DNA of 33,741 bases. Source: an uncultured SAR86 cluster bacterium. Lineage in GTDB: Bacteria > Pseudomonadota > Gammaproteobacteria > Magnimaribacterales > Magnimaribacteraceae. The notes under the pieces were generated by a model. That model was not told the DNA's origin and did not search any database. It was given only the letters and a program-made list of their open reading frames with translations. A program made the position numbers and the translations under genes. The stretch's first letter is position 1; every line of letters begins with the position of its first letter. The stretch is from NCBI GenBank assembly GCA_902554355.1, contig CACDOC010000001.1, positions 67,839-101,579 on the forward strand, in the 5' to 3' direction. Shown here in pieces: positions 23,937-25,998 of the stretch.

Positions 23937-25998
23937 TATTGTTTAAAAGTTCGAGAACGTTATCTTCTTCTAAAACCTCTACCCCTAACTCAATTGCCTT
24001 ATTCAATTTAGAACCTGGCTTTTCTCCAGCTATAAGATAATCAGTTCGGCTAGAAACACTGCTAGAAACTCTTGCACCGGACCTAATTAGCTCTTCTTTT
24101 AATTGACTTCTAGCAATGTCAGTAAAGGAACCGGTTATAACGACTACCTTTGAGCTAAATAGATTTTTAGATTGTACTTGCACTTCTTCTAATTCAATTC
24201 CTAACCTCAGTAACTTGCGGATTAGATTCTGATTATCCTTTTTAGTTAAAAAATTAAAGATATGATCAGCAGCAATGGGTCCAATATCATTTATTTCTAT
24301 CAATTCTTCTTTAGAAGCAAGCAAAAGTTTTTCTATATTTTGAAAATTTAAAGATAGATTTAGGGCAGTGGCTTCACCTACTTCCCTAATACCTAATGCA
24401 TATATGAATCTTGTAAGAGTGGTTTTTTTACTTCTTTCAATCGCATCTAGAAGATTCTTTGCTGACTTTTCTGCAAAACCTTCTAGTCCTAATAAGTCTA
24501 TCTTTTTTAAAGTATATAAATCTGAAAAATCAGAAATAAGACTCTTACGAACTAAGAGTTCAATAATCTTTTCTCCTAAACCATCTATATTAAGTGCGTT
24601 CCTAGAAACATAATGCCTAATTGATTCAGTTTTTTGAGCTGGACAATCCTTTCCTGCGTTACATCTTAAGATAGCCTCATCTTCTAATTTAGTTAGCTTG
24701 CCCTTACATGAAGGGCATTTATTGGGGATAGTAATTTTCTTAGATCCCTTTTTTCGCTTAGATAAATCAACTTTAATGATCTGAGGAATTACATCTCCAG
24801 CTCTTTTTATTTGTACCAAATCTCCTTCTCTGACATCAAGACGTTCTATCTCGTCAAAGTTATGGATGCTAGCGTGGGAAACTACAACCCCACCAATGTT
24901 GAGAGGTTCAAATTCAGCTACGGGAGTGATACTTCCTACTCTTCCTACTTGAAATGTAATTGACTTGACCTTAGTTGAACCAACCTCAGCAGGGAATTTC
25001 CTAGCTATAGCCCACCTTCGATACCTTTGTCTTTTAGAGAGTCCAATAGCCCACCTTGGAGCCCTTGAAACCTGACCTAGAGATTCTTGCAAATTAAAAT
25101 TATTTACTTTAAAAACAACGCCATCTATCTCATAAGGAAGTTTTGATCTTAAATTTTCTATTTTTTCGAAATACGAGACACATTCAGTTATATTATTTGC
25201 TAATTCTGCTAAAGGATTAACAGGCAGACCCCAGGAAGCATATAAATCAAAAACTTCTATTTGCGTTATAGGAGCCACACCTTTACCGTAATCTAAAGTT
25301 CCCAGCCCATGAGCAAAGAACTTTAAGGGTCTTGATGCAGCGATCTTTGGATCTAATTGTCTTAAACTTCCTGCTGCAGCATTTCTAGGATTAGCAAATA
25401 ACTTTTCTGATTTAATCTTAGCTTTATCATTTATATGTTTAAAGTCTTTAATATCAATATAAACTTCCCCGCGGATCTCTATTAAATTTGGAAACTTTGT
25501 TTTGGACTCTCTAAAAGACAAAGGTATCGAAGGTACTGTTCTAATATTATGAGTTATATCTTCTCCTGTTTTACCATCCCCTCGAGTAGTAGCTTGATGT
25601 AAATAGCCTTCCTTATAAATTAGATTAACAGCTATTCCATCTAATTTCGGTTCGCAAGAAAAGGTTAATGCTTCTTCGGAAACAAGCCTTTCTTTAATGC
25701 GCTTATTAAAGTCTTCTAAATCTCTTGTATTAAAGGCATTCTCGAGAGAAAGCATAGGCATTAAATGATCAACTTTATTAAATCCCTCTAAAGGCTCTGA
25801 ACCTACTCTTTGCGTAGGAGAGTAATCGAAACTAAGAGTAGGGTATTTTTCCTCAATTTCTAAGAGCTCTTTAAACAAGGCATCATATTCAGAATCTTCG
25901 ATGGTGGGATTATCTAAAGAATGATAATTATATGAATGCTCATTAATAAGCTTGTGAAGCTCAAGAACTCGAGATTTAACTTCTGAACCTATTTTCAT
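23929..25998 (-). CDS. ligA: NAD+-dependent DNA ligase LigA with a 13-residue insertion
   Basis: LigA seals nicks in replication and repair using NAD+. The 689-residue protein has the Ia domain at the N-terminus ([12 protein letters not shown]), the adenylation motif [11 protein letters not shown] (K118), [15 protein letters not shown] (motif IV, K297), ARKFPAE (motif V, K334), [15 protein letters not shown] (OB fold), a four-Cys zinc finger (CPSC...CNAGKDC), helix-hairpin-helix repeats and a C-terminal BRCT domain ([20 protein letters not shown]). Between SRAPRWAI and ARKFPAE lie 13 extra, mostly basic residues (319-331) not expected in the family. They derive from an inverted copy of another part of the gene (see repeats). 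The start is 12 bases after zipA. Confidence 0.95.
25007..25057 (-). repeat. 12-bp direct repeat flanking the ligA insertion
   Basis: ATAGCCCACCTT (plus strand) occurs at 25007-25018 and at 25046-25057, 39 bases apart. The unit between the two makes an in-frame 13-codon insertion in ligA and duplicates the WAI-encoding segment around motif V. Confidence 0.9.
25014..25046 (-). repeat. Inverted-repeat copy inside ligA (inserted copy)
   Basis: These 33 bases are the exact reverse complement of 25502-25534. They encode most of the unexpected LigA residues 319-328. The copy is bounded by a 12-base direct repeat (see next entry), which marks it as the newer copy. Confidence 0.9.
25502..25534 (+). 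repeat. Inverted-repeat source copy inside ligA
   Basis: The 33-base partner of 25014-25046. On the coding (minus) strand it specifies ordinary LigA sequence around residues 155-166 ([12 protein letters not shown]), so this is the ancestral location. Confidence 0.9.

Follow-up and report, generated by a model that had tools for sequence, protein, structure and literature searches.

The window, by which we mean the whole 33,741-nucleotide stretch analysed (positions 67,839 to 101,579 of contig C1), belongs to a 1.17 Mb assembly in 61 contigs that is 51% complete, and those of its relatives that bear names are SAR86-cluster bacteria. Within it lies ligA (Table 1), which encodes an NAD+-dependent DNA ligase matching the profiles of the adenylation, OB, zinc-finger, HHH and BRCT domains, the domain set of NAD+ ligases. 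The protein exceeds the cut-offs of the equivalog models TIGR00575 and NF005932, scoring 851 bits with the latter against a cut-off of 369, and no second ligA was found among the matches across the assembly. In an alignment with the E. coli enzyme (PDB 2owo), the motif V lysine (K314 in E. coli numbering) corresponds to K334 here. The feature of interest is an insertion close to this lysine, outside of which the gene is intact.

Table 1. Features of the ligA insertion (positions within the window)
Feature	Position	Strand	Remarks
ligA, NAD+-dependent DNA ligase, 689 aa	23929..25998	-	no second ligA found in the assembly
Inverted copy of the donor arm, 33 nt, exact	25014..25046	-	missing in all relatives
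Donor arm, ancestral, residues 155-166	25502..25534	-	homologous segment in relatives
12-nt direct repeat, copy 1, ATAGCCCACCTT	25007..25018		sequence match
12-nt direct repeat, copy 2, ATAGCCCACCTT	25046..25057		sequence match
Junction microhomology, 5 nt, ACCTT on the + strand / AAGGT on the gene strand	25014..25018		donor flank equals acceptor

Anatomy of the insertion

Two segments inside ligA are perfect reverse complements of each other over 33 nt (100% identity), and our listing of inverted repeats bore out the 33 of 33 matches described in an earlier note on this DNA, although the spacing of 456 bp given there has to be corrected to 455 nt between the arms. The same note had described 12-nt direct repeats bounding an in-frame addition of 39 nt, or 13 codons, and this was confirmed as well: compared to the relatives, the gene carries 39 additional nucleotides (13 amino acids, in frame and without a stop), made up of one 12-nt repeat and a templated core of 27 nt (25019-25045). 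Because the residues R-W-A-I are repeated, the alignment allows any placement between residues 315-327 and residues 319-331, of which the earlier note gave the last. The 13 inserted residues, most of them basic, separate the invariant RAP from motif V, closely preceding its lysine, as had been proposed. Read along the gene strand, the order across the junctions is CCAAGGTGGGCTAT / TGGACTCTCTAAAAGACAAAGGTATCGAAGGT / GGGCTATAGC, with an overlap of 5 nt (AAGGT) at one junction and of a single T (1 nt) at the other.

This arrangement is that of a double template switch, in which a growing strand exited to the opposite strand, copied about 33 nt of it and returned 12 nt behind the point of exit; a nearby reverse-complement segment is inserted, and the original strand is resumed after it. 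The polymerase route suggested in the earlier note thus stands with regard to the double switch, the copying of the opposite strand, the AAGGT junction and the ancestral donor, but not with regard to polarity, for which there are two equivalent readings: the junction of entry would depend on which strand was being synthesised, and AAGGT/ACCTT would mark the entry if it was the complementary one. Such a repeat is not expected by chance, as the number of exact inverted repeats of at least 33 nt within 5 kb is estimated at about 1e-9 for the whole assembly, and a mobile element or repeat family was rejected as the source since no further copy exists in the 1.17 Mb genome.

Donor, direction and age of the event

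LigA was compared with that of 29 relatives, namely four congeners (80-82% identical) and 25 further genomes, all of other species. None of the 29 proteins carries the 13 residues, so that presence in independent genomes, which would speak for a natural mutation, was not observed among the four congeners and 25 further relatives, and the residues are likewise missing from the E. coli and Thermus ligases with which they were aligned. The insertion interrupts a stretch of 15 residues that is invariant, or nearly so, across the 29 relatives and is conserved in the E. coli enzyme as well. The donor segment near residue 160 does occur in the relatives. As a separate observation, the translated LigA match of one relative (G009) contains an in-frame stop.

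The congeners depart from this genome at 4 to 7 of the 33 donor positions, and at each of these the inverted copy matches this genome. Because it bears these private letters, the copy must have been taken from this genome's own ligA, with 25502-25534 as the donor, and, given that no relative has the insertion, the event postdates the split from every relative sampled. That it divides an otherwise invariant stretch of the only ligA found argues that it is recent, and no letter has changed in either arm since the copying. The same private letters, together with the lack of the insertion in any relative, led us to reject an old lineage-specific loop. Correction of a quasi-palindrome was also rejected, as no inverted arm is present at the insertion point in the congener sequences and the relatives thus offer no prior arm at the site.

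We also ran the modelling of the insertion that the earlier note had proposed, using AlphaFold2 with an 11-row alignment. The pLDDT fell below 50 at residues 307-338 of LigA with the insertion, and equally at residues 308-324 of an uninterrupted congener LigA, in whose model the motif V strand is missing as well; because confidence is low near the site with and without the insertion, the models are uninformative as to whether it is tolerated.

Inverted repeats and false joins elsewhere in the assembly

All exact inverted repeats within contigs were listed across the 61 contigs, three of which (C59-C61) consist of N only. The ligA repeat ranked third in length genome-wide, behind two contig-end palindromes: contig C14 (24,805 nt) has perfect inverted ends of 7,259 nt, and contig C20 (18,803 nt) has perfect inverted ends of 6,038 nt. 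In C14, the sequence around position 17547 is collinear in one congener (G005), whereas that around position 7259 is not, and joins places that lie about 10 kb apart and in opposite orientation in the same congener. In C20, position 6038 is collinear in G005 and G022, and position 12765 is a false inverted join. The false join of C14 shows a 5-nt microhomology (CTCTA) when set against the sequence expected from three relatives; that of C20 likely shares AAGA, as judged from one relative. Genes in the inverted arms of both contigs are counted twice in the assembly. Perfect inverted ends and false joins of this kind have been published as hallmarks of chimeras made by phi29 polymerase during multiple displacement amplification (MDA). 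Among the four congener records, three have names in the style of single-cell genomes (AG-343-J11, AG-319-O13 and AG-343-L05), and the foldback contigs with their false inverted joins, along with the low completeness, strongly suggest that the present assembly is itself an incomplete MDA single amplified genome.

Next in the ranking after ligA comes a 29-nt exact core on contig C23, part of a 57-nt inverted copy (13683-13739) that is 93% identical to a portion of a methyltransferase-like gene (12843-12899) and lies downstream of that gene. Having diverged, this pair is probably natural. The copy adjoins a 46-nt copy of the 3' part of a tRNA (13743-13788, equal to 15917-15962), and could possibly be linked to a tRNA-derived integration site.

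As controls, 0.4 Mb of a one-contig relative (G010) contained a self-palindrome but otherwise no exact inverted pair in the range of 20-100 nt with its arms within 5 kb of each other, and seven 20-kb stretches from congeners yielded none longer than 18 nt, in an amount of sequence that is too short to provide a natural rate of inverted copies. The one-contig relative also contains a 254-nt exact inverted pair (C1:294083-294336 and 297208-297461) whose arms are 2.9 kb apart.

Discussion

The insertion in ligA is probably a chimera made in vitro during MDA, an artefact of amplification rather than a real feature of the genome, and we infer that the event took place in the tube. In this scenario, a phi29-type polymerase amplifying the DNA of one SAR86 cell would have produced an inverted chimera in two steps. 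A displaced 3' end would have paired over 5 nt (ACCTT with AAGGT) with another displaced strand, which had the opposite polarity and lay some 0.5 kb off in the same branched molecule. It would have been extended by about 33 nt along that strand and come free, and the freed end would then have annealed once more to its original template, 12 nt back from the point of departure. The outcome, an inverted copy of 33 nt flanked by the 12-nt direct repeats, would have been carried into the assembly. This reading is favoured because the same assembly holds two inverted false joins, at least one of them with a 5-nt microhomology, because the insertion is exact and confined to this genome, and because it disrupts, in the one ligA that was found, residues that are otherwise invariant. 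The fragmentation and incompleteness of the assembly (61 contigs, 51%), the single-cell style names of the congeners and the error benchmark of a marine single-cell pipeline (1.5 misassemblies and 3.0 indels per 100 kb; PMC11247762) argue in the same direction.

Orientation, distance and overlap also resemble those of published MDA chimeras. Of the chimeras formed when the DNA of a single E. coli cell was amplified by MDA, 85% were inverted, the joined sites lay mostly less than 10 kb from each other, and most showed a priming complementarity of 2-21 nt (Lasken and Stockwell 2007, PMC1855051), while in a large human data set distances peaked at 250-300 nt and overlaps at 6 nt (Tu et al. 2015, PMC4595205). 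The ligA event is similarly inverted, spans a few hundred bases (33 nt exact, 455 nt between the arms) and has at one junction an overlap of 5 nt, within the 2-21 nt range and the typical 5-8 nt, and at the other of 1 nt; it also shares its assembly with two large inverted false joins. Unlike most MDA chimeras, which are single joins, it returned to the first template after 33 nt and would be of the 2-level type, which does occur but is far rarer than the 1-level type (PMC4595205). The need for two switches thus counts against an artefact, as one study put 2-level events at only 2-3% of all MDA chimeras. Recent long-read data from MDA commonly contain palindromic reads that carry several inversions (PMC13265396). 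Two further points weigh against an artefact: an insertion would be in frame and free of stops only about 1 time in 6 by chance, according to our own estimate, and the diverged inverted copy on C23 indicates that the lineage probably also makes such copies naturally.

A less likely, though by no means negligible, possibility is that the insertion is instead a genuine mutation that arose only very recently by template switching in the cell or its population, whereby a nascent strand in replication or repair copied 33 nt of the opposite strand, or of itself, about 0.5 kb away and returned by microhomology. LigA would then be predicted to accommodate the 13 added residues in the form of a loop that links RAP to motif V. 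The undisturbed reading frame in an otherwise intact gene fits this possibility, as does the natural look of the C23 copy. Local double template switches are also known to arise naturally and usually lengthen the sequence, as reported in great apes (PMC7954356). The four-point model of Loytynoja and Goldman (as used in PMC7954356) describes such short-range events as a move out, a copy of the reverse strand and a move back, and the ligA event, like them, has lengthened the sequence and left two arms in perfect inverted repeat; it differs in that the model describes a process in cells, which the ligA event may well not be, and its 33 nt exceed the great-ape median of 12 nt (maximum 128). Bacterial quasi-palindrome-associated mutations (e.g. 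PMC7202029) similarly involve template switching at inverted sequence, but they perfect an existing imperfect repeat, of which there is none at the ligA site in the relatives, and the arms here are 455 nt apart. A mutation would have had to split a stretch nearly invariant from the relatives to E. coli in the only ligA found and to leave no sequence change afterwards, and it would do so in an assembly with proven inverted false joins. That a living SAR86 cell tolerated a freshly made insertion of 33 nt, templated some 0.5 kb away, with 13 mostly basic residues added to its sole ligase, is doubtful. The earlier note had regarded the insertion as mutational, in an essential enzyme, and had named an amplification or assembly chimera as the contrary case; the sequence anatomy that it described stands, and the amplification chimera is now the better supported of the two.

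Short-read assemblers can mis-resolve inverted repeats, and the insertion could in principle stem from an assembler that followed a wrong path at a repeat, with no chimeric molecule involved. In the relatives, however, the site of the insertion holds no inverted repeat that could be mis-resolved, and the inserted sequence belongs to no repeat family of the genome, and we regard a pure assembly error, or some other process, as very improbable.

If the insertion is an MDA chimera, it provides a worked example of how single-cell amplification can place an in-frame, stop-free and plausible insertion in an essential gene of a public genome. Short double-switch chimeras of this type slip past frameshift and contamination filters and could pass for protein innovation. 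Were the insertion real, it would be a rare case of fresh template switching in the gene of an essential enzyme, in a bacterium that is abundant in the ocean, and a natural long-range switch would have been caught soon after the event in an essential gene of a streamlined marine genome.

A short SMC gene upstream of ligA

Upstream of ligA, on the same strand (26663-29140), lies a gene for an SMC protein of only 825 aa, which scores above the SMC_prok_B cut-off and matches SMC_N, with no match to the SMC hinge. A second error was considered as the cause of its short length and rejected, as the relatives share it: the SMC genes of the congeners and of the one-contig relative are of equal length, with open frames of 826-843 aa. 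A short and apparently hinge-less SMC hence seems to be a genuine trait of this SAR86 family.
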